A model generated the notes under the pieces. It was given only the letters and a program-made list of their open reading frames with translations, made no database searches and was not told where the DNA came from. A DNA stretch of 64,000 nt from contig JAKQSI010000084.1 of the NCBI GenBank assembly GCA_029570205.1, forward strand, positions 1-64,000, given 5' to 3'. The position numbers and the translations under genes are program-made. Source of the stretch: Candidatus Omnitrophota bacterium (GTDB lineage: Bacteria > Hinthialibacterota > Hinthialibacteria > Hinthialibacterales > JAKPRU01). This document shows positions 46,665-63,288 of the stretch, in pieces; the first letter of the stretch is position 1; the number at the start of each line of letters is the position of its first letter.

Positions 46665-46781
46665 GAGTCACATCGGGACCTGTCTACACGACAAACTCTC
46701 GGAATGTTACCGTTGTTGTTCCGCAAGGAGAGATTTGCCCCGGCATCCGCCAGATCATTATGCCGGAAAGGAGGAACCAAG

Positions 46782-48134
46782 ATGAAGTTCGAAGCATTGG
46801 AGAAAGTGGGTGCGATGAGTCTTTTGTCGCCCTGGGGGCAGAACATGCACCTGCCCGCGGGGATTTTTCATTGGTCAGGACGGGCGAAAGCGGAAGCGGA
46901 GATCAACGGAACCATCGGCACCGCCAAAGGGAAAGCCCAACAGGTGTTCGGAACCGGGGGAGACAAGAAAGTCACGATGGCATTGCCGTCGATGAAGAAA
47001 TACATTCCAAACCTGGACCCCGAGCAGATTTTCCCTTACGCGCCCGATAAGGGACTGCCGGCATTCAGCTCGGCCTGGCGAAACTGGATTCTCCGCAAGG
47101 CGGGTGAGCAGGCGAAGCGGCTCGATCCGATTCTGGGGGAGTGTCAGGTTACTCCGGGCATTACGGGCGGACTGCACAACACGCTGAAATTGTTTGTCGC
47201 ACAGGGAGATCCCGTGGTGGTTCCCGATAAGCGCTGGGAAAACTACGACAATATAATCGAGATCAACCTGGGAGGCAAACCGGCCGAGTTTCCGTTTTTC
47301 AGTGGCGACCGATTCAATATCGACGGGATGTGCGATGCAATTCGTTCGGTTTGGAAACGGCAGGATCGTGCCGTCCTGATCCTCAACTTTCCCAATAATC
47401 CCACAGGTTATTCTCCGCCACGCGCCGAGGCGGAAGCGATCAAGAACAGCCTGCTGGAATTGACGGCGTCGGGAAACAAATGGCTTGTAGTCATTTTTGA
47501 TGACGCCTACGAGGGATATGTGTATGATCCCGGTGCGGCAAACAGGTCTTTGTTTTACGAAATGCTTCCGCAGAAGGGGCTGGTCACCATCAAGCTGGAT
47601 GGGATCAGCAAGGAAATGCTCTGGTATGGCGGCAGGGTGGGGACGATCACGATGGCGTATCCGCCGGATTGGGTCAGTGCCGTGGGGCGGAATGCGTTGG
47701 ACAAGGAATGGGGCAACAAGTTTGCGGGGATTTCGCGAAGCACGTATTCCAACTGCTCCATGGTAGCGCAGTCGGTAGCGGCAGCAGCCTTGCAGGATAT
47801 GGATCAGATTCTCGAGGAGAGGAAGGTGTGTATCGGAATCCTGGCGGAACGCTACCGGATTTTCAAAGAGGAACTTAAGAAGATCGACACCACGCGCCTT
47901 CAGTGCAACCCGTTTCAGGGTGGATTTTTCAACTTTTTCGACATTGTTCCGAAAGACGGTCCGTCGGCGGAGGATATGGCGGATCACCTGCTCAAGAAAT
48001 ACAAGACAGGAACCATTCCGGTACATTTCGGCTCATTGAACGGTATCCGGGTCGCGTTCTGCAGCGTGGAGGCCGAGGACATTCCGAGGTTGTGCGATAA
48101 TCTCAACAATGCGGCGAAGGACCTGATGCCGTAG
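46782..48134 (+). CDS. Class I/II aminotransferase (PLP-dependent)
   Basis: A 450-residue fold-type I aminotransferase. It shows LILNFPNNPTGYSPP (the Asn-Pro-x-Gly loop), VVIFDDAYEGYVYD (PLP-ring Asp) and KLDGISKEMLWYGGRVG, whose Lys binds PLP. The first 75 residues contain ALPSMKKYIPNLDPEQIFPYAPDKGLPAF, typical of the aspartate/tyrosine group. AAAGGAGG lies seven nt before ATG 46782, which is preferred over the frame opening at 46704. The substrate is unknown. It sits 9 nt before the cyclophilin-like gene. Confidence 0.85.
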   Translation: MKFEALEKVGAMSLLSPWGQNMHLPAGIFHWSGRAKAEAEINGTIGTAKGKAQQVFGTGGDKKVTMALPSMKKYIPNLDPEQIFPYAPDKGLPAFSSAWRNWILRKAGEQAKRLDPILGECQVTPGITGGLHNTLKLFVAQGDPVVVPDKRWENYDNIIEINLGGKPAEFPFFSGDRFNIDGMCDAIRSVWKRQDRAVLILNFPNNPTGYSPPRAEAEAIKNSLLELTASGNKWLVVIFDDAYEGYVYDPGAANRSLFYEMLPQKGLVTIKLDGISKEMLWYGGRVGTITMAYPPDWVSAVGRNALDKEWGNKFAGISRSTYSNCSMVAQSVAAAALQDMDQILEERKVCIGILAERYRIFKEELKKIDTTRLQCNPFQGGFFNFFDIVPKDGPSAEDMADHLLKKYKTGTIPVHFGSLNGIRVAFCSVEAEDIPRLCDNLNNAAKDLMP

Positions 48135-48971: not shown

Positions 48972-49664
48972 CTATGCCTTCGGTCCCAGACCGGCGATAC
49001 ATTGATCTTCCCGAATAACCTTTCGTGGCCCGCCATCCGAAGCGGTTGACCAATCATGCGGCTCGGCAATCCGTGCAAATTGTTCAAGAACACCCAAAGC
49101 ACACGCCCGATCATAAATGAGCTGCCAGGCACAATCTCGCTCAGCAACAATCTCGCATTTGCCGTCCCGAGATCCGGCGCACGGTCCGTTTAATAAACGT
49201 TTCGCACAACGAGTAATGGGGCAAATCCCGACGAATTCGCCCAGCCTGCAATTACCACAAGCGGCACATTTCTCGGTCCAGACTCCCGGCGCCTCCAGGA
49301 TACCGATGAACTGCGTGTTCACACCGGGATAGACTGTCGTATTTGGGAACCGATCGGCTAACGCCTGCACACCGGCTCCGCAACCCAGCGAGCAAATAGC
49401 GTCATACGGCTTCACGCGGGGAGCAAGAAGATCAATAAAGGCATTCTCGCATTGCCGCTCAATCGTACACTCATCTACAACTACATTGCCCCGACCGATA
49501 AGACGAAGCGCCATGCGAAGCGCGGAACCCAGGATCCCCGTCTCGCGTTCTCCACCGGCGAGGCATACCGTAACACAGGTCCCGCAGCCGACAAGCAGAA
49601 CACGGCTATGGTCCTTTATCATATCCCGAATTTCAGGTACTTTTTTCCGGTCCGCAACAATCAT
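48972..49664 (-). CDS. metV: MetV, Fe-S partner of methylene-THF reductase
   Basis: A 230-residue iron-sulfur and zinc-binding protein of the MTHFR C-terminal (MetV) family. It forms the MetFV methylene-tetrahydrofolate reductase of acetogens and related anaerobes. Cysteine clusters are LLVGCGTCVTVCL, ICSLGCGAGVQ and CAACGNCRLGEFVGICPITRCAKRLLNGPC. Its start overlaps the mvhD stop (ATGA). It is the last gene of the ten-gene operon. MetF is encoded at the other end (61736-62653), and partnership is inferred from family pairing. Confidence 0.9.
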   Translation of the reverse strand: MIVADRKKVPEIRDMIKDHSRVLLVGCGTCVTVCLAGGERETGILGSALRMALRLIGRGNVVVDECTIERQCENAFIDLLAPRVKPYDAICSLGCGAGVQALADRFPNTTVYPGVNTQFIGILEAPGVWTEKCAACGNCRLGEFVGICPITRCAKRLLNGPCAGSRDGKCEIVAERDCAWQLIYDRACALGVLEQFARIAEPHDWSTASDGGPRKVIREDQCIAGLGPKA

Positions 49665-50146
49665 TTCGTCTCTCCTTGAGGAATCGCCTCCTCTTGTATA
49701 ATGCGTCCGCCCAATTCCCGCTCCTGGTGCAGCCTGTTCGAGTGCAACGGGCTGAGTCCCAGCCGGGAAATGCGCTCGGCCATCTCTGTCACAATTTGCG
49801 CGAAGCGTCCCCCTTCGCCGGAAGACAGGTTATACATTTCCAGCCGCTCCGGTTCGAGACCGATTTCCGCCAGTATTTTCTTGGCGCGCTCTACCCGTCG
49901 CCGCGCCCGCACATTGCCCTCAAGAAAATGGCATCCCCCCTCCAGGCAACCGGCAACAATTACCCCGTCCGCTCCATACTCAAATGCCAAAAGCAGATGA
50001 TTGATCTCTACTCTGCCGGTGCACGGCAAGCGAAGTACCCGAACACTCTCCGGGTATTGAATCCGCATGGAGCCTGCCAGGTCGGCCGCTGCATACGCGC
50101 AGTAATGGCAGCACAATGCGAGGATAATCGGCTCTCTGTCGGCCAT
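49661..50146 (-). CDS. mvhD: MvhD-type [2Fe-2S] protein (second copy)
   Basis: A 161-residue ferredoxin-like delta subunit that passes electrons between HdrA and a partner such as hydrogenase, formate dehydrogenase or MetFV. Cluster-binding cysteines are seen in LCCHYC (residues 12-16), RLPCTGRVE (42) and GCLEGGCHF. The domain fits the MvhD family in length. It starts nine nt after hdrA and overlaps metV, which is the arrangement of Hdr-linked MTHFR complexes. Confidence 0.93.
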   Translation of the reverse strand: MADREPIILALCCHYCAYAAADLAGSMRIQYPESVRVLRLPCTGRVEINHLLLAFEYGADGVIVAGCLEGGCHFLEGNVRARRRVERAKKILAEIGLEPERLEMYNLSSGEGGRFAQIVTEMAERISRLGLSPLHSNRLHQERELGGRIIQEEAIPQGETK

Positions 50147-50155
50147 TTCTCAATC

Positions 50156-53100
50156 CTATTCATTACGCCGGAGCGGTTCCGCCGCCCCGATTTCTTCAAG
50201 ATAATCAATCGAGCTATCCCACTCACCGGAAGCAACGCGCAGCAGACTCTCTACCGCACCAAGGATCTGCGAGTCAAGGTAGTGCCGAAGCTGGACCGCC
50301 CTCGCCGGACACTCCGCCGCACAACTTCCGCATCCCATACAGACTGCCGTCCGGATCTCCGCCTTGTTGAACGAGTTGATTTGCGGGGCCATATACGGGC
50401 ACACATGCACGCATGTCATACAGGAAATACATTTGTCCGGGTCAACCCAGGCGACCTGTCCGCTCACCGCCATTTCTTTATGAGACAAGATCGATGCCGC
50501 CCGCGCGGCTACAGCGTTGGCCTGTGAAATTGTTTCGCTGATGAATTTTGGCGCCTGCGCTGTGCCGCAGAGGAACACCCCCTCGCTTGCAACATCTACC
50601 GGTCGCAACTTTATATGCGCTTCCAGGAAAAATCCGTCCGCATTCAACGGGACACGAAGCAGATTCGCTATCACCTGCCGATCCGCACGCGGTTCCATGG
50701 GGGCCGCGAGGACCAACAGATCGGGCCTCAATTCCAGATAACTGCCAAGCGACGGTTCCTGTACTCTCACACGAATATCACCGCTCGCCGACACATCCGG
50801 CGGGTTATCCGGCTCATAACGTATGAACAAAATACCTTTCTCACGCGCTTCCCGGTACGCCGCCTCCCGGAAACCGTATGTCCGCATATCCCGATACAAA
50901 ACAACAATACGCAGATTCGCATAGCGCTCCCGCAGGGCCAAAGCATTCTTCACCGCGGTGGTGCAACATACACGGCTGCAATACGGGCGTTCGGCATTCC
51001 GCTGCTCTACGCATTGAATCATTACCACAGTCCCGTCGGCGCGAAGAATTAGAGAATCATTTGCGAGATTCTCTGTGAGCTCCAGTTGCGTCACAATCCT
51101 ATTGTGCCTGCCGTATCCGAAAGTGTGCGGTTTCATTTCAACAGCGCCTGTAGCGACCACAATTACGCCGTGCTCAATCTCCCCTTCAGCCCCCTCAATA
51201 GCCAATATGGAGCGAAACTCCCCTACATGTCCGCCGACATGTGAAACACGAGTATTCAAATGGACCGTGATACGTGGATTGGTCGTTACACGTTCGATGG
51301 TCTGAAGAAGAAAAGTCTGTACATTTTCCCCATCCAGAGTCCGATGCACACGCAGCGCCGTACCTCCAAGATGCTCACTCTTCTCAATTAAATGCACAGG
51401 GAAACCCTGCTCCGCAAGGGAGAGAGCGACGGTCATACCGGCGATACCTCCACCCACCACCAGAGCCGTATTATTCACAGGCACCCTCTCTTCCTGTAGC
51501 GGTAACAACTGGGTTGCGCGCCCCACCATCATTCGAACCAGGTCCACCGCCTTCTCGGTAGCCTTTTCCGGACGCCCAGAATGAACCCAGGAACATTGGT
51601 CACGAATATTGGCCATCTCGAGAAGATACGGATTCAGTCCGGCATCCCGCAAGGTATCCCGGAAAATCGGTTCGTGCGTTCGTGGTGTACAGGAAGCGAC
51701 GACTACACGATTGATACCCCGCTCTCGGATAATCTGTTTCATCTTGTCCTGGGTGTCATCGGCACAGGTATAGATGTTATGATCCGCATAAACTACATGC
51801 GGTAATCGCCGCGCCTCCCCAACGACGGCTTCAATGTCTACAACAGATGCGATGTTGCTTCCGCAGTGACAAACAAATACACCGACTCTTGGCGGCTCGT
51901 CCGTAATGTCTCGCTCGGGCGGATAACTCTTCCTGCGCGTCTCGCTTCCTCGAGCGGGGGCAAGAAGCGACATCGCCCGCGCTGCCGCAGCGCTTGCCTG
52001 TACAACCGTATCTGGAATATCCTTCGGTTCCTGGAACACTCCGCCGACATAAATACCGTCTCGCGATGAATCCAACGGAGCCAATTCGCGAGTTCTCGCA
52101 AATCCCCATTCGTTTAAATCCACTCCCCACTCCTCGGCTTGTCTACGAATCGATGAACTCGCCTCCAATCCCACCGACAACACGACCAGATCGAATTCCT
52201 CTTCCACCTGCTTCAGATCCGATCCGATATAGGTCAACAAGATGTTCTTTGTATCGGGCATTTCGTATGTTCGTGAGACAAGAGATCGAATATACCGAAT
52301 TCCCCGATTTCTTGCCCGCTCATAGTAGCGGTCACACTCCTTACCGAACGCCCGCAAATCCAGAAAGAACACCGTTACCTCCAAGGCCGGCTCATGTTCC
52401 TTCGCAAGAATCGCCTCTTTTGTCGCCGCCATGCAGCACACCGACGAGCAGTAATCGTTACCGCATGACGTATCCCGTGATCCGACACATTGAATGAATG
52501 CAAGACGTCTCGGCGTGTTTCCGTCTGAAGGTCGAAAGATTCTGCCCCCTGTCGGTCCGGAAGCGGACAACATGCGTTCAAACTGTACATTTGTTACAAC
52601 ATTCTTTGCAACTCCAAAGCCAAACTCCGCACGACGCGTCGCGTCAAACGGCTCAAATCCCGGTGTCAACAACACAGCGCCGGCCTGCAACTGGAACGTA
52701 TGACTACTTTCGCTATGGTTAATCGCCCCCGCTTGACAGGCCTGGACACACAACATGCACTCCGAACATCCGGCGCAGTTCAGACAGCGTCGTGCCTCCC
52801 GCTGAGCCTCGTCCGCGGTATATGTACATTCTACTTCCCGGAAATTCCCAATACGATCTGCAGGGGCAAGTTCCTCCGTATTGACTCGCGGGACGCGGGA
52901 TATCGTTCTCTTAAGCCGGGCCACATCTTTCTTGCTGAGCGGATTTGCCTCTCTTTCCGGCAGTCTCAAACCGTCACTTAACGGACGACCTGACAGGTAA
53001 TTATCAATGGCGCGCGCGGCCCTAGTGCCTTGCGCGATGGCTTCAATAACATTGGATGGCCCGGTCACGACATCTCCAGCCGCAAAAATTCCCTCCTTTG

Positions 53101-54682
53101 ATGTAGCCATCGTGATGTTGTCCGTTACAACGGTTCCCAATTCACTGATCTCGAGTTCAAATAATTCCGCCAGTCTTGTGTCGGCGTATTGGCTAATTGC
53201 CGGAATCAGCATATCTGCTTCAAAGAAAAACTCCGTGCCCTCGATCGGCGCCGGCTCCCATCTCCCGCTTGCATCCCGCTCGCCCAGCTTCATGCGAATA
53301 CACTGAGCGCCCGTCATTCGCCCATTCTCACTGACAACTCTAATCGCTGTCGCACCCGCCATGATTTCGATGTTCTCTGCAAGTGCGCCCGCAATTTCCT
53401 CCGGCGCGGCAATCATTTCATCGCGACATCGAATCAATATCGTAACTGTTTCAGCCCCCAAGCGCCTGGCTACTCTTGCGGCATCGAACGCCGTATTCCC
53501 CCCACCGACAACCATTACACGTTTTCCTACCTCTGCCCCTTCATTCAATGAGAATCGTCTCAGAAACTCTACTCCATAAACGACTCCAGCGCACTGCTCA
53601 CCGGGGATGCCTAATTTCCGGCTTTCATGGGCGCCGGTCGCGATAAACACCACATCGAATTCTTTCTCTATCTGCTCTCTCGGAATGTCCTTTCCGACAG
53701 AACTTCCCGGTAGGAATGTTACTCCCAGCTTACGAATCGCGGAAATGTCCCTCTCCAGAATGTGGCGAGGCAGCCGATACTGTGGAATACCGACCGCCAA
53801 CATACCGCCCAGAACAGGTAATGCCTCATAGACAATACAGTGATGCCCGGCGAGAGCTAATGAATGAGCAGCGGCCAGACCCGCCGGCCCGGACCCGATA
53901 ATGGCTACGGATTTCCCACTCGGCTCAGTCCGGTTCGGCTTGTCCGATTCGGGAAAGAGATCCATTGCGAATCGTTTCAGTCCGCGTATATTGATCGGCT
54001 CATCAATCTCGCGCCGACTGCAGAGAGACTCACACGGATGAAAACAGACGCGACCACAAATCGAAGGTAGAGGATTATCCCGACGAATCACATCCGCTGC
54101 CTCCTTAATTCTGCCCGCCGCGATCAGAGCCACATACGCCTGAACACTGGAGTCGATGGGGCACCCTGTGCTGCACATTCCGCGACCGTTCTTGCGGATC
54201 ACGTACGCATTCGGAGCGGCCTGTGCATAGACCCGGTCAATTGCCTTTCGGGTCCCTATCCCCGCGTCAAAGGTACTCGGCAAGTTAACCGGACAGACAG
54301 CCGCGCAATCACCGCACGCCGTGCATTTGTGGATATCAACATAGCGTGGCCGCCGGCGAACCGTAACCCTAAAGTGCCCGGCTTCTCCTTCAATACGTAA
54401 CACATCCGAAAGGGTAAATACATCGATATTGATGTCCCGCATACATTCCACAAGTTTTGGAGAGATGATGCAGGTAGCGCAATCCCCAGTTGGAAAAGTC
54501 TTATCCAGACGGGACATTCCGCCACCCACTGCCGGGCTTTCCTCTACCAGGTAAACACGGAATCCGGCAGCGGAGAGATCGAGAGAGGCCTGAATCCCGG
54601 CGATTCCCCCGCCGCAGACCAATACCGCACCGCACAAATCGTTCGATCCTCCCGAGGCTGAAGGGCAACCGTTCGGATTCAT
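50156..54682 (-). CDS. hdrA: HdrA, duplicated and carrying an embedded GltD domain (1508 aa)
   Basis: The FAD subunit of a heterodisulfide-reductase-type complex, about twice the usual length. Residues 18-60 form the first FAD domain start (LVCGGGIAGIQ), and 120-130 an Fe-S motif (CTACGDCAAVC). Residues 168-560 form a complete glutamate synthase small-subunit-like unit (GltD/PreT type): STGCPID, GSGPAGLAAAHSLA (263-276), VVGGGNTAFDAARV (391-404), GIFAAGDVVTG (531-541). Residues 633-650 carry CLNCAGCSECMLCVQAC. 728-760 show the HdrA QCVGSRDTSCGNDYCSSVCC motif. A second HdrA half follows (VVGGGIAG at 1075, QCVEQRNAERPYCSRVCC at 1223), ending in two ferredoxin motifs (1418-1460). The ATG overlaps hdrB. 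Confidence 0.9.
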   Translation of the reverse strand: MNPNGCPSASGGSNDLCGAVLVCGGGIAGIQASLDLSAAGFRVYLVEESPAVGGGMSRLDKTFPTGDCATCIISPKLVECMRDINIDVFTLSDVLRIEGEAGHFRVTVRRRPRYVDIHKCTACGDCAAVCPVNLPSTFDAGIGTRKAIDRVYAQAAPNAYVIRKNGRGMCSTGCPIDSSVQAYVALIAAGRIKEAADVIRRDNPLPSICGRVCFHPCESLCSRREIDEPINIRGLKRFAMDLFPESDKPNRTEPSGKSVAIIGSGPAGLAAAHSLALAGHHCIVYEALPVLGGMLAVGIPQYRLPRHILERDISAIRKLGVTFLPGSSVGKDIPREQIEKEFDVVFIATGAHESRKLGIPGEQCAGVVYGVEFLRRFSLNEGAEVGKRVMVVGGGNTAFDAARVARRLGAETVTILIRCRDEMIAAPEEIAGALAENIEIMAGATAIRVVSENGRMTGAQCIRMKLGERDASGRWEPAPIEGTEFFFEADMLIPAISQYADTRLAELFELEISELGTVVTDNITMATSKEGIFAAGDVVTGPSNVIEAIAQGTRAARAIDNYLSGRPLSDGLRLPEREANPLSKKDVARLKRTISRVPRVNTEELAPADRIGNFREVECTYTADEAQREARRCLNCAGCSECMLCVQACQAGAINHSESSHTFQLQAGAVLLTPGFEPFDATRRAEFGFGVAKNVVTNVQFERMLSASGPTGGRIFRPSDGNTPRRLAFIQCVGSRDTSCGNDYCSSVCCMAATKEAILAKEHEPALEVTVFFLDLRAFGKECDRYYERARNRGIRYIRSLVSRTYEMPDTKNILLTYIGSDLKQVEEEFDLVVLSVGLEASSSIRRQAEEWGVDLNEWGFARTRELAPLDSSRDGIYVGGVFQEPKDIPDTVVQASAAAARAMSLLAPARGSETRRKSYPPERDITDEPPRVGVFVCHCGSNIASVVDIEAVVGEARRLPHVVYADHNIYTCADDTQDKMKQIIRERGINRVVVASCTPRTHEPIFRDTLRDAGLNPYLLEMANIRDQCSWVHSGRPEKATEKAVDLVRMMVGRATQLLPLQEERVPVNNTALVVGGGIAGMTVALSLAEQGFPVHLIEKSEHLGGTALRVHRTLDGENVQTFLLQTIERVTTNPRITVHLNTRVSHVGGHVGEFRSILAIEGAEGEIEHGVIVVATGAVEMKPHTFGYGRHNRIVTQLELTENLANDSLILRADGTVVMIQCVEQRNAERPYCSRVCCTTAVKNALALRERYANLRIVVLYRDMRTYGFREAAYREAREKGILFIRYEPDNPPDVSASGDIRVRVQEPSLGSYLELRPDLLVLAAPMEPRADRQVIANLLRVPLNADGFFLEAHIKLRPVDVASEGVFLCGTAQAPKFISETISQANAVAARAASILSHKEMAVSGQVAWVDPDKCISCMTCVHVCPYMAPQINSFNKAEIRTAVCMGCGSCAAECPARAVQLRHYLDSQILGAVESLLRVASGEWDSSIDYLEEIGAAEPLRRNE

Positions 54683-55575
54683 GATCGTTTGCCTCCTTCG
54701 GCCGGATTCAGAATCCCGTGTTTCGCTAGAAGCGGCATGGCATCAACCGCCGGAGCCTCCAGCGCCAATTCATCCACCGACAGCCCCAACGCCAACCCCA
54801 GTAGTTGTGTAATGTAAAGAATCGGGATCTCCGGGACCTCACCGAACGACTTCCCGATATCCGCCTGGCGAAGGTCAAGATTGGATTGGCAAAGCGGGCA
54901 CGCAACGGCGATACATTCGGCTCCGGCGCGGTGCGCCATTGAAAGTAACCTGTACCCGAGTCGTCGGACGACATCCGGATCGGTAATAGAAAGACTTGCC
55001 CCGCAACATTCCGTCTTGTATGGCCAATCAATCGCCTCGGCTCCAACGACGCGCAGCACTTCCTCCATACAGGTCGGGTATTCCGGATCGTCGAACGCTA
55101 CTATTTCGGGAGGCCGCGACAGGAGACAGCCGTAATAACAGGCCACTTTCAGACCGCCAAGCGGATGTGAGACATTCCTTCGAATTTCCTCTGTTCCCAG
55201 ATCGTTAGCCAAGACATCCAGGATGTGCTGGACCTGTACAGAACCGTCATACGGCATGCCCGTGATTCTCTCGGCACGACTGCATTCCGCCGGATCATGC
55301 GTGATCTTATAGTTGGCTGTCCGAAGGCGGGAGTAACATGAGGCGCACGCCGCCATCACGGGCATCCCCATGTCCCGTGCCCTGAGCAAGCTGAACACGG
55401 GAAGCGCCACGGCTAACGACGCATTGCTGGCATGTGCCGGTGTGGAACCACAACAGATCCAGTCGGCTATCTCATGCAACTCCAAGCGGAGGGCGGCGCA
55501 AACGGAAAGCGTGGATTTCTTAAAATCCCAAGCCGTTGATTCCAGGCTGCAACCGGGGAAAAAAGCGTATTTCAC
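54679..55575 (-). CDS. hdrB: HdrB, heterodisulfide reductase subunit B
   Basis: The 298-residue catalytic subunit with two CCG domains that bind non-cubane [4Fe-4S] clusters. First: PGCSL (Cys9), CCGS (41-43), ACASC (77, 80). Second: YYGCLLSRP, ECCGAS, CPLCQSN. All ligands are intact, so it should reduce a disulfide or act as an electron-transfer unit. Its stop overlaps the hdrA start and its start overlaps the hdrC stop, both as ATGA, which implies a 1:1 complex. Confidence 0.94.
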   Translation of the reverse strand: MKYAFFPGCSLESTAWDFKKSTLSVCAALRLELHEIADWICCGSTPAHASNASLAVALPVFSLLRARDMGMPVMAACASCYSRLRTANYKITHDPAECSRAERITGMPYDGSVQVQHILDVLANDLGTEEIRRNVSHPLGGLKVACYYGCLLSRPPEIVAFDDPEYPTCMEEVLRVVGAEAIDWPYKTECCGASLSITDPDVVRRLGYRLLSMAHRAGAECIAVACPLCQSNLDLRQADIGKSFGEVPEIPILYITQLLGLALGLSVDELALEAPAVDAMPLLAKHGILNPAEGGKRS

Positions 55576-56132
55576 CGATTTCTTTCCTCCTCATCCGCTC
55601 TCTGAAATATCTCTGTAACCTGCGCGACATTAGCCGATCGTGGGGCTAACACAGAAAGTTTCCTTTTTGCCAATAATTTCCGCGCTTTGTCCAGGTCGGT
55701 AAGAAAGTCAAAGCACCGGAATTTGTATGCAGTAAGCATCCCCAGTTCGAAAATCCGCCCGTGCCTGCGCACGCTCGAAAGAAAAGAACGGTAAAACGTC
55801 TCGCCCCGCTTACCGGGAACTCGCAATTTACGTCGGGCCGCGAGGATTCGAAGAGTATCCATCACGGTAGCAACGTCGATCCCCATCGGGCAGCGGCTTG
55901 TGCAGGCTTCACACGATGCGCAAAGCCAGATCGAGCGACATTTCAGTACCTCCTCCTCTCCTCCGAGATGGATTAGCCGCATAATTTGGCTTGAAAGAAG
56001 ATCCATTTCCCGGCCGATGGGACAGCCGGCAGAGCATTTGTGGCATTGGACACACGCGCTTACAGGTGTACCGCTGAGTCGCTCAACCTCGCGAAGGAAC
56101 GCGATGTCTCTCCACTCCAACGTGTCGTTCAT
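55572..56132 (-). CDS. hdrC: HdrC, ferredoxin-like subunit
   Basis: The 186-residue iron-sulfur subunit that links HdrA and HdrB. Two CxxCxxCxxxC[P] motifs are present: ACVQCHKCSAGCP (Cys27, 30, 33, 37) and CASCEACTSRCPMG (Cys71, 74, 77, 81). The rest is helical, as in HdrC of methanogens and bacteria. It overlaps hdrB (ATGA) and follows the GltB1/3 gene by three nt. Confidence 0.93.
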   Translation of the reverse strand: MNDTLEWRDIAFLREVERLSGTPVSACVQCHKCSAGCPIGREMDLLSSQIMRLIHLGGEEEVLKCRSIWLCASCEACTSRCPMGIDVATVMDTLRILAARRKLRVPGKRGETFYRSFLSSVRRHGRIFELGMLTAYKFRCFDFLTDLDKARKLLAKRKLSVLAPRSANVAQVTEIFQRADEEERNR

Positions 56133-56135
56133 CTC

Positions 56136-58766
56136 TTATTCGTCCATTTCATCCAAATCCGGCTCCTTGACCGCATCCTTCACGGGGACTACTTTACGAT
56201 AAACTTCTGACGGGCTCCGCAGAACCCCGTCTACTGTGAGCAAATCGCGCTCCACCTTAACTCCGAATAGCCGCTCGTTCTCGCGAAGATACGGCAGGAT
56301 TACTTTCCAGTCCGCGCCGTTTACAGTCTGATACACACCACCGTTCAGCTGCTCATTGACAAGTGTACGGTAAGGGTCTCGAATATAAATCGCGCCCCCG
56401 GAGGCTAACGAGAGCAGGTTACTGCCGGGGTAAGGTAAATCCAATGGAACCACATTTCCGTCAACATGAAATCGAATTCCATTCACAATCGCAAAACCGC
56501 CACCCTGCAAAGGATTGCCCGCCATAAACGACTCGCCCAGAAAATCGAGAGCGGTTCCGTTGATAACGACCCTGGGGCGCCCCACCGCATTGATCAGTGG
56601 ACGACCCGCTGTATTCCCCATCACATAGATTTCCCCTCCTTTTGCGCCGTACAGGAACGTCTGGCCCACATCCCCATAGATGACTACCTTACCGCGCTTC
56701 GCGATCTGGCACAGCTGATCCTGAGCATTACAGTGAACATACACCTCCAGGCCGTCGATCCCGGAAGCCAGGTAGTCACCGGGATTATCATAACAATCGA
56801 TGCGCAGCCCGTCCGTATTGGGGCCGAATCCGACTGCATGAAAACGGGTTCCACGTGTATTGTAATGAATCAGGTGTCGCCAACCGAGTGTATAGGCTTC
56901 GACAGCCAGCCTTGCATCGCATTGTTGCCCCTCCGCGGAGAAACCGCGCGCATCAATCAACAGCACGGTCTCTCCCGCCAGAGGCCCGCGCAGTTGTCTT
57001 CGGGAGTCCCACGTAATTCTTCTACACGCCCCCTCGCGGGAATCACCGAGAAACGGTTGTCGTCGAAATAGATGTTCGAGGCCATTGCGGAATACCATGA
57101 GAACGGAACTACGTTTCTTGTGCCCTGTCGGGTATCTCCGGTCCATACAGGCAGTTAATATGTCGATTCCCAAAAGAGGTAACCTGACCGCCGTCTGTGC
57201 GACAATTTCATCAACTATCCAGCGAAGTCGGTTGTAATCCATGTCCACGACGGAATCCCGCATGTATTGAAATAACTCGTCCGATGAATTTGAGCGAACG
57301 GCTTGTTGAATCCTGGAAAGAGCCTCTTTCTTTTCTTCCGGCGGATTGACCGCGATGGAGAAATCGCATGACACCTGCCCCGGAGGAACGGTGACCGCTT
57401 CGCCAAACTTGTTCGTTACATGAAGGTCGTAGCCGCCATTGTCTCCCCTGCCGTGTTCATTCGGAACCACATTCATGAGAAACGCGCCGCCGTCGGTATG
57501 GCTGCCGCCCCGCGCGTTCCAGTACAGATCGGCGACCGGACAAAACCGAGAATCCTCCCCGGCGAGACTTGCCAGCGTTGCATCAATAGCCTGTTTCTCG
57601 GAACAGATCAAGCCGATCGACACCTCGCCTTCCTGGAGAGCAAACACTTGCGGGCGGAGCATCGCTGTATCGGTAATTCCCAGCAGTTGAAAACCACCCT
57701 TGTTATCAAGAACGCGCGCAATAATGAAGAACCACGGTCCGTCCGGAGAGCCGTGAATATGCGACGCCTGGATCTGACGATAGATGCGGCGTTTTTCGGC
57801 AGGCAGGCGATCAACATCCAGTTCTGCAGTCGGGGCTAATGCTTCAATAATATATTCGATGGGATACTTGTACACACGGTGAAGCAAATCGAATAAAAGA
57901 ACGGAGACTTCCGTATCGGTCAGGAATTTCGGAAACAGGTGTCGCTGTGCAAGGTATTCGGTAACGGAATGGTAATTCGCAAAGTCCCCATTATGCACAA
58001 GCGCCTCGTTCATGCCGATGAATGGGTGTGCCCCGCCCGGATGCCAGACACGGCCCCGAGTCGGATAGCGCTGGTGCGCCAGCCAGACATGCGCCCGCAG
58101 TTCTCGCATCTGGTAATATTCCACCGCCGCTTCCGCATACCCGACTATTTTGATAATAAACAGATTTCGGGCATGAGACAGCACAAAGGCACGTTTCTCT
58201 CCCAGGGAAGAATAAAAACGATCGTTCAGCCGATTGGAATTCTGGAAAACAAATTCATCCTCACTCTCGCGTTCAGTGAGGCCGATCAGATTCTTTTCCT
58301 CGACAAACCGCTCAAGAATAGCCGATTTGACGCGGACAAAATATCGAGCAACGTCCGGGGGCCTGATCTCGAGCAGAGCAATATCACGATAGTCATCCAC
58401 AGTGGGGATGATCCCACCCTGCTGCACATCGAAATATGGTTCCAGGAAAGTTTTCTCTACTTCGCCACGCGCCGTGGAATCCAGCAAGGCAATCTGAAGA
58501 ATGTAACTTTCCTCGAGTGTTCCTCGCGAAACTCTCAAGTCTTCGGGAACGAGACCACATGCGGCAATTCCACCTCCTTTACCGTTGCCTCGGTTCCGCA
58601 TTTGGATTGATGGTTCATAGATGTGTTTGCCGCTTACGGGGATGGTGCACGCCAATCCGGTAACTCCGCATCCACCTTCGGCTTCGGGGCATTTTCGGAA
58701 CCAATCAGAAAGTGGCGGACGAAGATCCGACCGAGCCTGAATATATTTCCATACCCGTTTATCCAT
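56136..58766 (-). CDS. Glutamate synthase amidotransferase (GltB1) fused to GltB3 (GXGXG) domain
   Basis: An 876-residue protein. The N-terminal part is a class II glutamine amidotransferase: Cys33 in GGCGVTGLA would become the N-terminal nucleophile after removal of a 32-residue propeptide, and RYPTRGRVW with GAHPFIGMNEALVHNGD are present. The C-terminal part is the beta-helical GXGXG domain (YGDVGQTFLYGAKGGEIYVMGNTAGRP). The FMN-binding domain is absent and encoded separately by the next gene. It overlaps nothing but lies 22 nt after gltB2 and three nt before hdrC. It would supply ammonia from glutamine inside the complex. Confidence 0.9.
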   Translation of the reverse strand: MDKRVWKYIQARSDLRPPLSDWFRKCPEAEGGCGVTGLACTIPVSGKHIYEPSIQMRNRGNGKGGGIAACGLVPEDLRVSRGTLEESYILQIALLDSTARGEVEKTFLEPYFDVQQGGIIPTVDDYRDIALLEIRPPDVARYFVRVKSAILERFVEEKNLIGLTERESEDEFVFQNSNRLNDRFYSSLGEKRAFVLSHARNLFIIKIVGYAEAAVEYYQMRELRAHVWLAHQRYPTRGRVWHPGGAHPFIGMNEALVHNGDFANYHSVTEYLAQRHLFPKFLTDTEVSVLLFDLLHRVYKYPIEYIIEALAPTAELDVDRLPAEKRRIYRQIQASHIHGSPDGPWFFIIARVLDNKGGFQLLGITDTAMLRPQVFALQEGEVSIGLICSEKQAIDATLASLAGEDSRFCPVADLYWNARGGSHTDGGAFLMNVVPNEHGRGDNGGYDLHVTNKFGEAVTVPPGQVSCDFSIAVNPPEEKKEALSRIQQAVRSNSSDELFQYMRDSVVDMDYNRLRWIVDEIVAQTAVRLPLLGIDILTACMDRRYPTGHKKRSSVLMVFRNGLEHLFRRQPFLGDSREGACRRITWDSRRQLRGPLAGETVLLIDARGFSAEGQQCDARLAVEAYTLGWRHLIHYNTRGTRFHAVGFGPNTDGLRIDCYDNPGDYLASGIDGLEVYVHCNAQDQLCQIAKRGKVVIYGDVGQTFLYGAKGGEIYVMGNTAGRPLINAVGRPRVVINGTALDFLGESFMAGNPLQGGGFAIVNGIRFHVDGNVVPLDLPYPGSNLLSLASGGAIYIRDPYRTLVNEQLNGGVYQTVNGADWKVILPYLRENERLFGVKVERDLLTVDGVLRSPSEVYRKVVPVKDAVKEPDLDEMDE

Positions 58767-58788
58767 CGATTATCCTTCGCCGGAATCT

Positions 58789-60333
58789 TCATTCTTCATA
58801 GTCAAGATGTCCGAGCAAATCCGTTCGCCCGCGTAAGGCGGTTACAGAATCGAGACCCAGGCGATACAGAATGTCGATCAGCATTTCGCGCCAGGCGTTA
58901 TACATATTCACCAGTCGCTGTGTGCACCAATCGATTGTGACCATTTCCAGGAGTTCCGTGTCCGTGGTACAGATTCCGCGCGCGCATCCCCGTCCGCTTT
59001 CACAGCATCCGCAGCGAACACAGCCGAGGGCCACCAGCTCCGCCGTCCCAATCACCACACCGTCCGCGCCCAATGCAATGGCCTTGGCCATATCTGCCGG
59101 TGTACGAATTCCGCCGCTTGCGATCACATTTATCTCATCCCGAACCCCCTCGCCCAGCAAAAACCGATGAACCTGGTTGATCGCATATTCAATCGGCATG
59201 GCTATATTCTTCTTCGCGATGTTCGGCGCGGCCCCGGTTCCGCCGTAGCTGCCGTCAATGTGGACGATATGCGCCCCGGCACAGTACACTCCAACGGCTA
59301 CCATGTCGATATCCGCCGGAGTAGACACTTTTGCTGAAAGCAAAGCGCGCGGATTCACGTGCGAAATCCAGTCCAGATGTTTCTTGTGGTCCTCAATCGA
59401 GTACACGCTGTGAAACGGAAACGGCGAGAAAAGGGATGTTCCCACAACCGCTTCCCGCATCCGCGCGACCTCCGGCGTGTTCTTATCGCCCAGCAGATGT
59501 CCGCCGAGGCCGGGTTTTGCCCCCTGCGCGTATTTCAATTCAACGATCGGGGCACGTTGGATCGTGTCCTCGCGCACACCGAACAATCCTGTAGCCACTT
59601 GTGTAATGATATGGTCGGAGTACGGAATAAGTCTTTCATGATAGCCGCCTTCGCCCGTAGAGGTAAAGGTATTCCATGCTGTTGCCGAGCGAGACCTGCC
59701 CAGTAGAGCGCGGATATTCGTGGATCCGAACGACATCCCCCCGCCATACCAGGGCACATCAATCTTTATTTTCGGCCGTGTATCCTTTCGTTTGTTGAGC
59801 AGTATCTCTGTCGAAATGTCCTCCCGACGGATATCCGCCGGTGGGTGGTCAGGGTAACGGAAGTACAGGCGGTCGAATCCCCCGCCTGAATTGCCGATCT
59901 CACTTTCCAGGTGGGACGGCGGAATCCGGCCGGTTTCCGCCATGGCCCACGTAGCGGCAAGCAGATCGCCGGTCCAACGACAGTCCCCAAGGGTATCAAA
60001 AGCCGGATTCCTGAGAAGCGAAAGCGCGCCCTGCGGGCAAGCCTCAATACAGTAATGTTCCGTGTTCGAACAATCGAATCCGATACATCGGTAGTCTTGC
60101 GGACGAACAATCAATCCGTCCCCATCCGGGCTGGAATGGACACCGTACGGACAAATCTCTACACATCTGCGACACCGGATACAGGTTGAGGCACGATGGA
60201 TACTGAATTTGCCGATTTCATTTCGGTAACGGGACGGAGCCGGGCGCACTGCCCGGGAGACCTCCGAATAGTCCGGCGTGGGTCGCTTCTTCTCCGTCGG
60301 TGTTGAAAGAACGGCGGCTTGTGCAGCATTCAT
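58789..60333 (-). CDS. Glutamate synthase FMN domain with N-terminal ferredoxins (GltB2)
   Basis: The 514-residue FMN/iron-sulfur subunit that reduces 2-oxoglutarate plus ammonia to glutamate. An N-terminal ferredoxin part has CIRCRRCVEICP (Cys51, 54, 57, 61). FMN and catalytic motifs follow: YGGGMSFGS, GEGGYHERL, GAKPGLGGHLLG, IDGSYGGTGAAP and IASGGIRTPADMAKAIALGADGV. The 3Fe-4S motif is CGCCESGRGCARGIC. This is the archaeal-type split form. It starts eight nt after the paralogue at 60342 and sits next to gltB1/3. Confidence 0.92.
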   Translation of the reverse strand: MNAAQAAVLSTPTEKKRPTPDYSEVSRAVRPAPSRYRNEIGKFSIHRASTCIRCRRCVEICPYGVHSSPDGDGLIVRPQDYRCIGFDCSNTEHYCIEACPQGALSLLRNPAFDTLGDCRWTGDLLAATWAMAETGRIPPSHLESEIGNSGGGFDRLYFRYPDHPPADIRREDISTEILLNKRKDTRPKIKIDVPWYGGGMSFGSTNIRALLGRSRSATAWNTFTSTGEGGYHERLIPYSDHIITQVATGLFGVREDTIQRAPIVELKYAQGAKPGLGGHLLGDKNTPEVARMREAVVGTSLFSPFPFHSVYSIEDHKKHLDWISHVNPRALLSAKVSTPADIDMVAVGVYCAGAHIVHIDGSYGGTGAAPNIAKKNIAMPIEYAINQVHRFLLGEGVRDEINVIASGGIRTPADMAKAIALGADGVVIGTAELVALGCVRCGCCESGRGCARGICTTDTELLEMVTIDWCTQRLVNMYNAWREMLIDILYRLGLDSVTALRGRTDLLGHLDYEE

Positions 60334-60341
60334 CGTAGCGA

Positions 60342-61733
60342 TTACGCTCCAATCCGGTCTTTCCGTTTGCCGAAAAGTCTGCCGAAGTTGTCTCGCTCTA
60401 AATCCTCGAAAAACATACTTCGACCCGTTTCCCCGCGCAACCGGCGCACTTCCCGGATACCCATTGCGCCGAGCATTTCAAGCATCTGGTTGTACCAGGC
60501 TCCCATCAGGTTGACGATGCGTCGAACCGCATATTCCGGTTCGATCCGTGCGAGATCGACCGGACAGATTTCCCCGCGTTCGCATTCGCCGCACAACCGG
60601 CATTCCAAGGCTACCATGAGAGGAATATCAACGGCTACAAGATTCGCGCCGCAGATGATCGCCTTCGCCGCATGTTCGGCGAGGGCGATACCGCCGGATG
60701 CAATTAACGTAACTTCGTCGCGAATTCCTTCCCGGACAAGAGCGCCGTGAATCTCGCGCATTACATCGCGAAGGTGTCGCGGATCCGAAGATTCATGTTC
60801 CATCCCATGCGGGTCGAAATCGAATTGAATCACCTCTACACCTTCCCGGGTCAATTCAACGGCTCGTTTGTGGGATTTGGGAGTCGCCGGCGCACGAACA
60901 GCGACTATTTGATCGGGATTCTTTTCTTTTAGAGATTTCTGTACAGAAACAACGTTCGGCGAATCGGCTAACATCACCATCGCAGCGGAATTGTCGGCGG
61001 ACGTCGGCGCATCTTCCGCGTTTCGATAAAGCGGGATGATATGCCCGGATTCCGCGGGGATTTCGTCGCCGGGAACAATTGCCATCAAGCCGATTTCCGA
61101 GGCCGCCCGGATGACCGAATAGCAGATCGCGCCCTTCTGCCAGGGTTCCGGGACAACATCGAAAATAACCGGGAAAGGGATTTCGATTAACGTCGGAGGC
61201 GAAGCCGTCGGTTGCCCGTCCTGAAAGGAAAGATAAGGCAGGGTTCGTCCGATATCTACACTGGTGCTGATGTACTCACGCCCGTGAATACCGTCACGAG
61301 TGGGGCGGACAATTTCGGACATATCCGTCCACATCGAATCGAATCCGGGACCGCTGAACGGCCCTCCGTATCCGGAGCCTGAAACAGGAATCTTACCGGT
61401 TTCCGCCTGAAACCACGTGGTGAGAATAATATCCGGCGTATAGTAGGAGTCGCCGAGCTGCATGTATTCGGGATTAACCACGCGCGTCAAAATCCCTTTG
61501 GTACAGTTTTGGACGCAGGTTAAACAACCTTTACATTGATATATGTAGTCCAGGTAACCCGGTTCATCGTGAAGGATATCGGCCTCTTTACGGTAGAAAC
61601 CGTAAACGCAGCTTTTCTTGACACAATTGTGACAACCGGCGCAATCCTCCCTCCAATCCACGATGCCGAGTTTTCCGACAGGACGAAATCGTGGGGGAGC
61701 CGGTTCGGTATGGATGTGGTATTTAGCCGGCAC
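60342..61733 (-). CDS. Divergent GltB2 paralogue (glutamate-synthase-like, altered active site)
   Basis: A 463-residue paralogue of the preceding subunit. An N-terminal ferredoxin region has CAGCHNCVKKSCV and CKGCLTCVQNC. The motif FSGPGFDSMWTDMSEIVRP is shared with related archaeal-type proteins, and the end has CRLCGECERGEICPV. The expected DGSYGGTGAAP stretch is replaced by FDFDPHGMEHESSD, and the GAKPGLGGHLL stretch is missing, so glutamate formation is unlikely. It may be a structural or electron-transfer partner of the active subunit. It follows metF by two nt. Confidence 0.8.
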   Translation of the reverse strand: MPAKYHIHTEPAPPRFRPVGKLGIVDWREDCAGCHNCVKKSCVYGFYRKEADILHDEPGYLDYIYQCKGCLTCVQNCTKGILTRVVNPEYMQLGDSYYTPDIILTTWFQAETGKIPVSGSGYGGPFSGPGFDSMWTDMSEIVRPTRDGIHGREYISTSVDIGRTLPYLSFQDGQPTASPPTLIEIPFPVIFDVVPEPWQKGAICYSVIRAASEIGLMAIVPGDEIPAESGHIIPLYRNAEDAPTSADNSAAMVMLADSPNVVSVQKSLKEKNPDQIVAVRAPATPKSHKRAVELTREGVEVIQFDFDPHGMEHESSDPRHLRDVMREIHGALVREGIRDEVTLIASGGIALAEHAAKAIICGANLVAVDIPLMVALECRLCGECERGEICPVDLARIEPEYAVRRIVNLMGAWYNQMLEMLGAMGIREVRRLRGETGRSMFFEDLERDNFGRLFGKRKDRIGA

Positions 61734-61735
61734 GT

Positions 61736-62653
61736 TCAGTCCACCCCAAGCCCCGATGTTGCCGTGACTTCCAGAGCGGCGTCGTCATCCCCTGCGCCAT
61801 CGATTTCAAAACCGCGTACGCCCTCCAGCCCGGAGAGTTCGCGGAGGGTCTCCAGAGCGATCGCAATTCCCTCAGTCCGCTGCGCATCCGGACCTGATTT
61901 CGACGCAAGACGTTGAAGAACAGACTCAGGAACTACCGGATTGGGGCGTTCCGCCACGAAAAAGTTCGCCTGTTCGACATTTCCCAACACGCGAATCCCC
62001 GCAAGAACGGCAACTGTTTCATGTATACGCACACGGACAATTTCTTTCCACCATGCTTTGAATCGTTCCAAATCAAAGACGGGCTGAGTAATCAGAAAAT
62101 GGACTCCGGCATTAACCTTCTTAACCAGGCGCATGATCTGCAATTCCATCGGATCGGCATACGGAGCCGCCACACCACCCAGGCAGAACGGACCGGCGTT
62201 GTCGAATCTCTCCTCTCCGACAACGGTTCCATTCTCAGCCAATCCCGCAATCGCCCGGATCAGTTGGACCGAGTCGAGATCGAAAACATTCCTGGCCGCG
62301 CGGCATCGCCCCAGGGTCTGATGGGTTCCGCCGGTGCAGAAAACGTTGCGAATACCCAGCGCATCGGCTCCCAAGCAATCGGAAATCAACGCAATCCGGT
62401 TCCGGTCCCGTGTCACAAGGTGGAGAATCGGCTCGACTCCCTGAGCCGCAACCAATGACGCCGCCGCAAAAGCAGACATGCAGACTCCGTGCCGATTGTC
62501 GCTGATCCCAAGCGCATGAACTTTTCCTGCGTACCGTTTCACTGTGGCGACCACAACGGAGGAATCGCTGCCGGTTGGAGGGCAGATTTCCGCAAGAAGA
62601 ATCCGTTTTCCCGATTCGATTCGTTCGTGTAAGGCCGTTTTCTCTTTTGCCAT
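61736..62653 (-). CDS. metF: MetF-type methylenetetrahydrofolate reductase
   Basis: The 305-residue TIM-barrel flavoenzyme that reduces methylene-THF to methyl-THF. Motifs: RILLAEICPPTGSD near the N-terminus, LHLVTRDRN, FCTGGTHQT, RLVKKVNAGVHFLITQPVFD (MetF signature) and LAGIRVLGNVEQANFF. The start is ATG at 62651-62653; a TTG nine nt earlier is an alternative. With MetV at the operon end it should form the MetFV enzyme of anaerobes. The C-terminal 20 residues are acidic and atypical. Confidence 0.92.
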   Translation of the reverse strand: MAKEKTALHERIESGKRILLAEICPPTGSDSSVVVATVKRYAGKVHALGISDNRHGVCMSAFAAASLVAAQGVEPILHLVTRDRNRIALISDCLGADALGIRNVFCTGGTHQTLGRCRAARNVFDLDSVQLIRAIAGLAENGTVVGEERFDNAGPFCLGGVAAPYADPMELQIMRLVKKVNAGVHFLITQPVFDLERFKAWWKEIVRVRIHETVAVLAGIRVLGNVEQANFFVAERPNPVVPESVLQRLASKSGPDAQRTEGIAIALETLRELSGLEGVRGFEIDGAGDDDAALEVTATSGLGVD

Positions 62654-62683
62654 GGTTTTCAACCGGGGGAACCGGTCGGGAGA

Positions 62684-63148
62684 TCATGCCCGACATTGAT
62701 AATCCTGCCGTATTGCCTCCTGAAGTGAATTGACACCGAACGGCACTGGGCCAAGCCCGCAAATCCGTTCCACCACCGCATGAATTCGCTGCTCAAACGA
62801 TTCGGGAGATTCCCGAGGGGAAGATTCCAGTATCTGCGCCCGTTCCGGTTCCAATCCGATCTCGCCCAGCAGGCGCTGTACGGTCTGAACGCGAATCCGG
62901 GCACGGTAGTTCCCCTGGGCGAGGTGACATTCGCCCGACGGGCAGGTCACTACGCAAAAACCATATCCCCCGCCTTCCAGCACATGAAACAAATACTGGA
63001 TGTCCGTCTTACCACTGCACGGGATTTGCCTGACCTGAACCAGAGCGCCGTTCAGTCGCCATTGCCGCATCATACGTGTTCCAGGCGGAACGCAGTTGTG
63101 GCAGACATACACAATGACATCAGGGCGCATCGGTTCAGGCATTCCCAT
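62684..63148 (-). CDS. mvhD: MvhD-type [2Fe-2S] protein (first copy)
   Basis: A 154-residue ferredoxin-like delta subunit with cysteines in YVCHNC, QIPCSG and TCPSGEC, the pattern of MvhD proteins. It is the first gene of the operon, 30 nt before metF. The second copy (49661-50146) lies between hdrA and metV. Two copies suggest two distinct electron-transfer contacts, one possibly with MetF and one with HdrA, which is an inference. Confidence 0.9.
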   Translation of the reverse strand: MGMPEPMRPDVIVYVCHNCVPPGTRMMRQWRLNGALVQVRQIPCSGKTDIQYLFHVLEGGGYGFCVVTCPSGECHLAQGNYRARIRVQTVQRLLGEIGLEPERAQILESSPRESPESFEQRIHAVVERICGLGPVPFGVNSLQEAIRQDYQCRA

Positions 63149-63258
63149 ACCCTAATCGGCCTTCAAAAAAACGTGAAGAAATGGAGTGGATCATCAGGCA
63201 AGCGGCAATCCTTTGCGGATCGCGAAACAGCCCATGGAGTCTCACTCAAATGCGCCTT

Positions 63259-63288
63259 CTTATACTACCTGAGAAGGGAAGATGTCAA
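63259..63288 (-). promoter_or_regulatory. Strong sigma-70-like promoter of the mvhD-metF-glt-hdr-metV operon
   Basis: On the minus strand TTGACA (63283-63288) is followed after 18 nt by TATAAG (63259-63264). The predicted start is near 63252, about 104 nt before the mvhD ATG. In the leader GCGATCC-GCAAA-GGATTGC forms a 7-bp hairpin near 63205-63225. No known riboswitch consensus was recognised there. Confidence 0.7.

Follow-up and report, generated by a model that had tools for sequence, protein, structure and literature searches.

A conserved operon combining Moorella-type HdrABC-MvhD-MetFV genes with a split glutamate synthase

Why should the genes of a Moorella-type methylene-tetrahydrofolate (THF) reductase complex stand in one operon with those of a glutamate synthase, and does the unit couple the two reactions that these names imply? 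The question is raised by a stretch of 64,000 nucleotides from a Candidatus Omnitrophota bacterium, here called the window, in which ten co-directional genes occupy positions 48972-63148 of the minus strand. A first-pass annotation, made from the letters alone, had given these genes, their single strand and their order; all of this was borne out, and the Pfam and NCBIfam assignments agree with the names of all ten. The features are as follows.

63259-63288, minus strand: promoter-like sequence, TTGACA-18-TATAAG, its first base 140 nt ahead of the mvhD1 start
62684-63148, minus strand: mvhD1 (first gene), MvhD/FlpD-like [2Fe-2S] protein that retains the Cys pattern in the window copy (PF02662, E 5e-23)
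61736-62662, minus strand: metF-like flavoprotein without the catalytic Asp of methylene-THF reductases (MTHFRs) (PF02219, E 1e-20)
60342-61733, minus strand: GltB2-like (G2L), ferredoxin domain and degenerate glutamate synthase FMN barrel (PF01645, E 2e-12, C-terminal half)
58789-60333, minus strand: GltB2, ferredoxin domain and FMN/2-oxoglutarate synthase domain with Fe-S cysteines (PF01645, E 6e-87)
56136-58766, minus strand: GltB1/3, class II glutamine amidotransferase fused to a GXGXG domain (PF01493)
55572-56132, minus strand: hdrC, two [4Fe-4S] cluster motifs (TIGR03290, E 3e-17)
54679-55575, minus strand: hdrB, two CCG (non-cubane [4Fe-4S]) motifs (TIGR03288, E 2e-52)
50156-54682, minus strand: hdrA, two HdrA units, GltD-type FAD/NAD(P)H insert and C-terminal ferredoxin domain (HdrA2 NF040770, E 8e-291)
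49661-50146, minus strand: mvhD2, MvhD/FlpD-like [2Fe-2S] protein (PF02662, E 6e-49)
48972-49664, minus strand: metV (last gene), MetV-type zinc/Fe-S partner of MetF (PF12225, E 2e-33)

The short gaps and several overlaps that had been described are also there: from mvhD1 to metV the intergenic distances are 21, 2, 8, 22, 3, -4, -4, 9 and -4 nt, a range of -4 to +22 with three 4-nt overlaps. The strong promoter proposed in front of the operon was only partly upheld. A near-consensus sequence lies at 63288-63259 (11 of 12 consensus bases, counted by eye), but promoter-like matches in the region showed no excess over shuffled sequences (5 against a mean of 10.1). TTGACA-18-TATAAG is itself missing from the scanner's list: the scanner accepts only T as the final base of the -10 box, and here that base is G. 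A terminator scan likewise did no better than shuffles, and no sigma-54-like motif was found ahead of the window operon with up to two mismatches allowed. A promoter function of this sequence is plausible but unproven.

We scanned for relatives with the GltB2-like protein and inspected gene order in the best 80 of at least 538 relatives, almost all of them from metagenome-assembled genomes. The run mvhD-metF-GltB2L-GltB2-GltB1/3-hdrC-hdrB-hdrA was present in at least 35 of these best 80 and, because the same run recurs in so many related loci, the eight-gene order is far beyond chance. The full run through metV was found in 20 genomes outside the window's genus, under about 15 phylum labels. 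Where metV seemed to be missing from many relatives, the 10-kb flank had ended too early: hdrA-mvhD-metV was present in 25 of the 28 stretches that were extended further downstream. A plasmid collection yielded general glutamate synthase homologues only, with no close relative. The first-pass annotation had proposed a search of other genomes for metV close to gltB1/gltB2 and hdrA, and this order is widespread, in many phyla; of its concern that the order might be common and already characterised, the first half proved true, whereas no description was found. The literature covered was that of openly accessible journal papers, which makes this weak evidence; it includes papers on MetVF-HdrABC-MvhD and on HdrA-GltD/NfnB, none of them combining these with gltB.

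These data support the view that the conserved unit joins a Moorella-type HdrABC-MvhD-MetFV set and a split glutamate synthase. The window has the complete Moorella-type gene content in one unit (hdrA with two units and a GltD insert, hdrB, hdrC, mvhD, metV and metF), and these are the families of the MetFV-HdrABC-MvhD complex of Moorella thermoacetica, an Hdr-type MTHFR also found in S. ovata and marine Chloroflexi (PMC9430772, PMC5736913). Compared with that complex, the window operon has three extra genes of GltB origin and two mvhD genes rather than one, keeps metF apart from metV and encodes a MetF without the catalytic Asp. No tight co-purification of HdrCBA-MvhD and MetVF was seen in S. 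ovata (PMC9430772), which speaks against a complex.

The Hdr part carries the sequence features of an electron-bifurcating HdrABC: FAD and ferredoxin domains in HdrA, two CCG motifs in HdrB (both present in 43 of 43 family members), [4Fe-4S] motifs in HdrC, and MvhD. The window HdrA matches that of solved Hdr complexes (E 1e-182) and can be aligned over its whole length with the HdrA of Moorella-type operons that lack GltB; GltD family matches place its GltD-type domain at about residues 166-565. This domain had been counted within a full set of glutamate synthase domains. All the domains are present, but GltD belongs to the Moorella-type HdrA (PMC9430772) and is not specific to glutamate synthase: HdrA of the GltB-free operons L212 and L213 likewise carries it, and in many relatives of the window operon this NAD(P)H module is exchanged for a NuoF-like NADH subunit. 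HdrA9-11 of ANME-1 likewise carry an NADPH-type GltD/NfnB domain (PMC9012536), and the passages covered mention no accompanying glutamate synthase subunits.

To judge from their sequences, the glutamate synthase parts seem to possess a complete catalytic apparatus. GltB2 matches the GltS structures 1ea0/2vdc (E 2e-48, 168 bits) and has the FMN synthase domain, 2-oxoglutarate-site residues and [3Fe-4S]-type cysteines of a glutamate synthase (GOGAT); K273, R293, S312, E314, C438 and C444 are invariant in 78 family members, and C450 is kept in 77. The first four correspond by alignment offset to 972, 992, 1011 and 1013, which we take to be 2-oxoglutarate-site residues of Fd-GltS. GltB1/3 retains the class II amidotransferase residues C33, R59, R233, N259, G260 and D284 in 65 of 65 members, the nucleophile Cys33 being preceded by a leader of about 32 residues. 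Its model (pLDDT 85) is closest to Fd-GltS 1ofe (Z 26.4 over 586 residues), with Cys33 superposed on residue 1 of the GltS chain, Cys1, and the GXGXG domain is recognised both by PF01493 and by the fold match across the C-terminal region. The gene first named GltB2-like does encode a GltB2 paralogue (model pLDDT 80; best PDB match GltS 7mfm_G, Z 24.5), but a degenerate one, in which the FMN/2-oxoglutarate segment is deleted and the Fe-S cysteines are retained; it is probably an Fe-S relay.

The set thus resembles GltBD and Fd-GltS in its amidotransferase with an N-terminal-type Cys, its FMN domain with 2-oxoglutarate-site residues and Fe-S cysteines, its GXGXG domain and its GltD-type FAD/Fe-S domain. 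It differs in that the alpha subunit is split into an amidotransferase-GXGXG fusion and a separate ferredoxin-FMN protein, a degenerate GltB2 is added, and GltD is located within HdrA. A separate FMN subunit with a ferredoxin domain is also found in the archaeal-type GltB1, GltB2 and GltB3 (36-37% identity to the copy in locus L021), whereas in the window GltB1 and GltB3 are fused and linked to metF and hdr genes. Several operon-bearing genomes encode no further PF01645 protein. The window's genome also encodes a normal 1680-aa GltB and so has another glutamate synthase besides the ten-gene set.

The neighbourhood of the relatives is one of nitrogen assimilation, not of C1 metabolism: genes for AmtB, P-II, NrpR or GlnA lie near 32 of 85 operons, whereas 3 of 40 controls have one nearby (Fisher p 2e-4). 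In the flanks of the window operon, a search for five types of nitrogen-assimilation gene found none.

Mapping of the window MetF onto E. coli MetF placed Thr113 at the position of Asp120, while Glu25 (E. coli Glu28) is retained; the Glu28 and Asp120 pair of an Hdr-type methylene-THF reductase is therefore incomplete. The Asp120 equivalent is kept in 26 of 26 comparison MTHFRs, but 59 of 60 long operons, as we call those of the window's type, lack it, with residues such as Thr, Tyr or Phe in its place, and the long-form MetF has also changed near E. coli positions 61-69 and 226-228. The Asp-less proteins form one clade (SH-aLRT 99). In E. coli, the mutation D120N lowers kcat to 0.3% and raises the Km for methylene-H4F more than 40-fold (PMC11094777). 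There is also a short form of the operon (mvhD-metV-metF-GltB2L-GltB2-GltB1/3, no Hdr), and in all 13 short operons, where MetF adjoins metV, the Asp is kept. GltB-free Moorella-type operons keep it as well; since L209, L212 and L213 retain it despite HdrABC, we rejected the idea that association with HdrABC alone removes this residue. The Cys columns of MetV are conserved in 41 family members; in the PDB, no relatives of MetV and only remote relatives of MetF were found.

The first-pass annotation had suggested that a working methylene-THF reductase and the glutamate synthase share the HdrA flavins, so that the formation of methyl-THF and that of glutamate are coupled or kept in balance. Such a coupling would agree with the genes present and their conserved linkage, as well as with the retained Glu28 and MetV cysteines; with Glu28 in place, MetF may still have weak MTHFR activity or act on another pterin. 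Without the Asp120 equivalent, however, the coupling is unsupported in this window, whose genome encodes two other MTHFRs; at least one other is present in every long-form genome tested. AcsB (PF03598), the AcsB/CdhC marker of a host with a Wood-Ljungdahl (acetogenic) operon, was not found in the window's genome (93% complete) or in two genomes of the same genus, and the nitrogen genes around the relatives also speak against the coupling. We consider it unlikely for the long form. In the short form a C1 link may exist, because there MetF is intact and 8 of 9 genomes encode AcsB, against 11 of 39 for the long form.

It is also improbable, in our judgement, that the operon simply places under common control enzymes that work apart, a conventional glutamate synthase dependent on ferredoxin or NAD(P)H and an Hdr module of the Moorella type, between which no electrons pass. 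Enzymes that never touch often share operons, many of the same genomes have a canonical GltB, and a different operon, L218, has an archaeal-type gltB1-B2-B3 together with metV-metF, next to ORFs that resemble homoserine dehydrogenase and aspartokinase (named by eye). Yet the order is fixed across phyla, long and short forms stand back to back in locus L043, a dedicated degenerate GltB2 paralogue retains its Fe-S cysteines, and MetF and GltB1/3 have diverged in a correlated manner (tree distances, r 0.81, 57 loci). Very improbable is a GltB-like trio of the N-methylglutamate synthase kind (MgsABC/GlxBCD type) handling C1-N units beside MetFV, for although MgsABC is composed of the same three domains and the folate-enzyme association would be accounted for, GltB2 scores 168 bits to GltS structures and about 150-170 to glutamate synthase records, against 95 to a rhizobial trio (amidotransferase, GXGXG and FMN proteins beside sarcosine oxidase genes), the neighbours are AmtB, P-II, NrpR and GlnA, and no sarcosine-oxidase-like or N-methylglutamate dehydrogenase genes were found among the recurrent flank families.

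The reading that we prefer, with a probability of about 0.5, is an NAD(P)H-driven glutamate synthase that is coupled to HdrABC, may bifurcate electrons and contains a repurposed MetF. Against it weigh the S. ovata co-purification result, the retained Glu28, the further GltB of the window's genome, the lack of the five nitrogen-gene types in the flanks of the window operon and the origin of nearly all relatives in metagenome-assembled genomes. We infer that the gene products form a complex. As fold and invariant residues suggest, GltB1/3 would hydrolyse glutamine and pass ammonia to GltB2, whose FMN would reduce the 2-oxoglutarate imine to glutamate. Electrons would enter from NAD(P)H at the GltD domain of HdrA, or through the NuoF subunit in many relatives, and would run from the flavins of HdrA along an Fe-S chain of HdrC, HdrB, MvhD and G2L to GltB2; flavin-based bifurcation seems the most likely mode and would send a second electron pair to ferredoxin. 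MetFV would derive from the Moorella-type methylene-THF reductase complex, and the long-form MetF, having lost the Asp that anchors the pterin, probably works as an FAD relay, as a docking subunit or on a different substrate. The short form, which has an intact MetF and occurs chiefly in genomes that encode AcsB, may tie glutamate synthase directly to methyl-/methylene-THF. More tentative, and on balance doubtful, is the full claim of a new type of flavin-based bifurcating enzyme in many phyla of uncultivated bacteria, a glutamate synthase whose HdrA would divide the electrons of NAD(P)H, some for ferredoxin and others for the FMN that forms glutamate, and whose MetF paralogue, once a folate catalyst, would now be a redox or docking subunit.

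MetF in such operons should not be taken as evidence for the Wood-Ljungdahl pathway or for methyl-THF formation, and electron exchange between methyl-/methylene-THF and glutamate synthase can be examined directly in the short form. If the preferred reading is true, the operon would clearly illustrate how a folate reductase subunit can lose its catalytic residue after joining another complex. Glutamate synthesis could then also give reduced ferredoxin, the known acceptors of Hdr complexes would be joined by another, and nitrogen assimilation in many uncultivated bacteria would be tied to HdrA-based electron splitting. The ten-gene set may be an undescribed energy-saving route for anaerobes during nitrogen assimilation.

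Gene calls and family assignment confirmed the existence and placement of the ten genes that the first-pass annotation had described, listed here in transcription order:

62684-63148, minus strand, mvhD1 (first)
61736-62662, minus strand, metF
60342-61733, minus strand, G2L (GltB2-like gene)
58789-60333, minus strand, gltB2
56136-58766, minus strand, gltB1/gltB3 fusion
55572-56132, minus strand, hdrC
54679-55575, minus strand, hdrB
50156-54682, minus strand, hdrA with GltD insert
49661-50146, minus strand, mvhD2
48972-49664, minus strand, metV (tenth)

Intergenic distances lie between -4 and +22 nt, and three pairs of neighbours overlap by 4 nt. The sequence claimed as promoter, TTGACA-18-TATAAG, is present at 63288-63259, but promoter-like matches in the region are no more frequent than in shuffled sequences. 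A 4.39-Mb draft genome, 93% complete, contains the window as contig C46. A class I/II aminotransferase gene (46704-48134, plus strand) converges on the operon 3' end and is absent from the flank families recurring in relatives.

The GltD domain had been read as a mark of glutamate synthase, a view that could not be maintained. Exactly this insertion has been described in Moorella HdrA (PMC9430772), the full-length HdrA of two GltB-free hdrB-hdrA-mvhD-metV-metF operons (loci L212 and L213) aligns end to end with that of the window, and about 15 relatives lack GltD and place a NuoF-like NADH subunit between hdrB and a split hdrA. GltD is therefore part of HdrA, an exchangeable NAD(P)H entry.

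The glutamate synthase part of the operon looks functional. An AlphaFold2 model of GltB1/3 (pLDDT 85) resembles the ferredoxin-dependent glutamate synthase in 1ofe over 586 residues (Z 26.4), its residue 33 superposing on residue 1, the nucleophilic Cys, of the mature enzyme. All members (65/65) keep C33 and the residues of class II amidotransferases; since a leader of 29-35 residues always precedes C33 in these, the sequences suggest a propeptide. In GltB2, the positions equivalent to Fd-GltS 972, 992, 1011 and 1013, whose roles there are to bind 2-oxoglutarate and control the tunnel, do not vary among 78 members, nor do two of the cluster cysteines, the other two being present in 77. The G2L model has the same barrel fold (best structural match GltS, Z 24.5); its ferredoxin cysteines and cluster cysteines are kept and the segment with the FMN/2-oxoglutarate residues is deleted, and we read G2L as an electron relay or scaffold. 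Its most invariant stretch, residues 131-155 (WTDMSEIVRPTRDGIHGREYI, window 61269-61343 region), falls in the least confident part of the model, as expected for a contact or cofactor site that a partner completes.

The operon is widespread and conserved. A single GTDB genome scan, with the G2L alignment as query, gave at least 538 loci with G2L relatives, the best 80 of which were compared. The order mvhD-metF-G2L-gltB2-gltB1/3-hdrC-hdrB-hdrA (long form) was seen, up to contig or flank ends, in 35 of these best 80 of at least 538 loci, and hdrA-mvhD-metV was found further downstream in 25/28 stretches. Both surveys combined, 20 genomes outside the window's genus carry the complete ten-gene run, a few with split hdrA and an extra nuoF-like gene. 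The closest named relatives among the matches listed are MAGs labelled Candidatus Omnitrophota; other NCBI labels include Planctomycetota, Thermodesulfobacteriota, Chloroflexota, Myxococcota, Hydrogenedentota, Sumerlaeota, Armatimonadota, Fibrobacterota, Bacteroidota, Ignavibacteriota, Kiritimatiellota and Verrucomicrobiota, individual labels being possibly wrong because nearly all are metagenome assemblies. MetF and GltB1/3 tree distances correlate (r 0.81, 57 loci), as expected for a unit inherited together.

MetVF-HdrABC-MvhD is already known (PMC9430772, PMC5736913, PMC7325909), and so is HdrA with NADPH-type inserts (PMC9012536). The first-pass annotation had considered that the gene order might be common and already characterised: it is common, but in our search, with preprints and most subscription papers outside it, we found no paper joining MetVF-HdrABC-MvhD or HdrA-insert systems with glutamate synthase genes. 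We file the operon as a glutamate synthase to which a Moorella-type Hdr module is joined, and not as a methylene-THF reductase (MTHFR), because one of the residues defining the latter was tested and found replaced.

In the alignment with E. coli MetF, the window protein keeps Glu28 (Glu25) and has Thr113 at Asp120. This Asp anchors the pterin and is termed invariant and catalytically essential (PMC9900621); D120N lowers kcat to 0.3% and raises the Km for methylene-H4F more than 40-fold (PMC11094777). It is present in 26/26 comparison MTHFRs from other genomes, in GltB-free Moorella-type operons, in all 13 metF genes adjoining metV in a short form of the operon without HdrABC, and in three metF relocated elsewhere. 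It is lost in 59 of the 60 distinct long-form metF genes (60 raw Asp-less rows, one contig appearing twice), the exception being L065, whose contig ends after gltB2. Proteins without the Asp group in a single clade (SH-aLRT 99), inside which L065 falls, and further positions near the pterin site are also altered. Each of the long-form genomes tested encodes a further MTHFR, and the window's encodes two; its second metV-like gene (G000:C59:136180-136443) and an Asp-containing MetVF-type metF (G000:C14:48440-49342) lie on different contigs. Given the lost Asp, the nearby changes and these other MTHFRs, we think that long-form MetF is probably no longer a normal methylene-THF reductase. Since S. 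ovata pulldowns show HdrB interacting with MetF (PMC9430772), a role as FAD relay between HdrB and G2L would be attractive.

The short form runs mvhD-metV-metF-G2L-gltB2-gltB1/3 (e.g. L020, L021, L081, L089, L094) or mvhD-G2L-gltB2-gltB1/3-metV-metF (L053, L076), and the two forms stand back to back in L043. AcsB occurs in 8/9 short-form versus 11/39 long-form genomes (Fisher p 0.0014) and is lacking in the window's genome and its two congeners. With MetF intact and hosts bearing AcsB, it is conceivable that methyl-THF and glutamate synthase exchange electrons directly in the short form.

Several loci carry further arrangements. L110, L111, L114 and L115 have an additional hdrC, a second hdrA (~1000 aa) and a third mvhD after metV, with no hdrC and hdrB at the usual position. 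A little 3' of metV, L123 (7079-11106) and L131 (3594-7621) have a second GltB2-type gene (553 aa), followed by a protein of 806 aa that carries a GltD/HdrA-like domain. Adjoining the short-form operon of L021 is a divergent archaeal-type gltB1-gltB2-gltB3 set (14227-19048) with an HdrBC-like fusion protein of 454 aa. L218 (5262-12999, genome G147) encodes on a single strand HdrB-like, archaeal-type gltB1-gltB2, FMN-binding glutamate synthase-like, gltB3, metV and metF, then aminotransferase-, homoserine dehydrogenase- and aspartokinase-like ORFs (assigned by eye); it forms a second and apparently independent metVF-gltB link without G2L.

Genes for AmtB, P-II, NrpR, GlnA or GlnD lie near 32/85 operons versus 3/40 control windows (p 2e-4), the probes being general families taken from the operon flanks themselves. 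In several operon-bearing genomes the operon proteins are the only PF01645 proteins; the window's genome has a separate 1680-aa GltB.

Most likely, NAD(P)H would reduce the flavin of GltD (or NuoF) and HdrA would split the electrons between two branches, one leading to ferredoxin, reduced at the C-terminal domain of HdrA, and the second running through HdrC/HdrB, MvhD, MetFV and G2L to GltB2. The redox potential of glutamate formation is similar to that of the CoM-CoB heterodisulfide, and the reaction would therefore suit the high-potential branch. We infer complex formation, this electron path and bifurcation in an Hdr-linked glutamate synthase.
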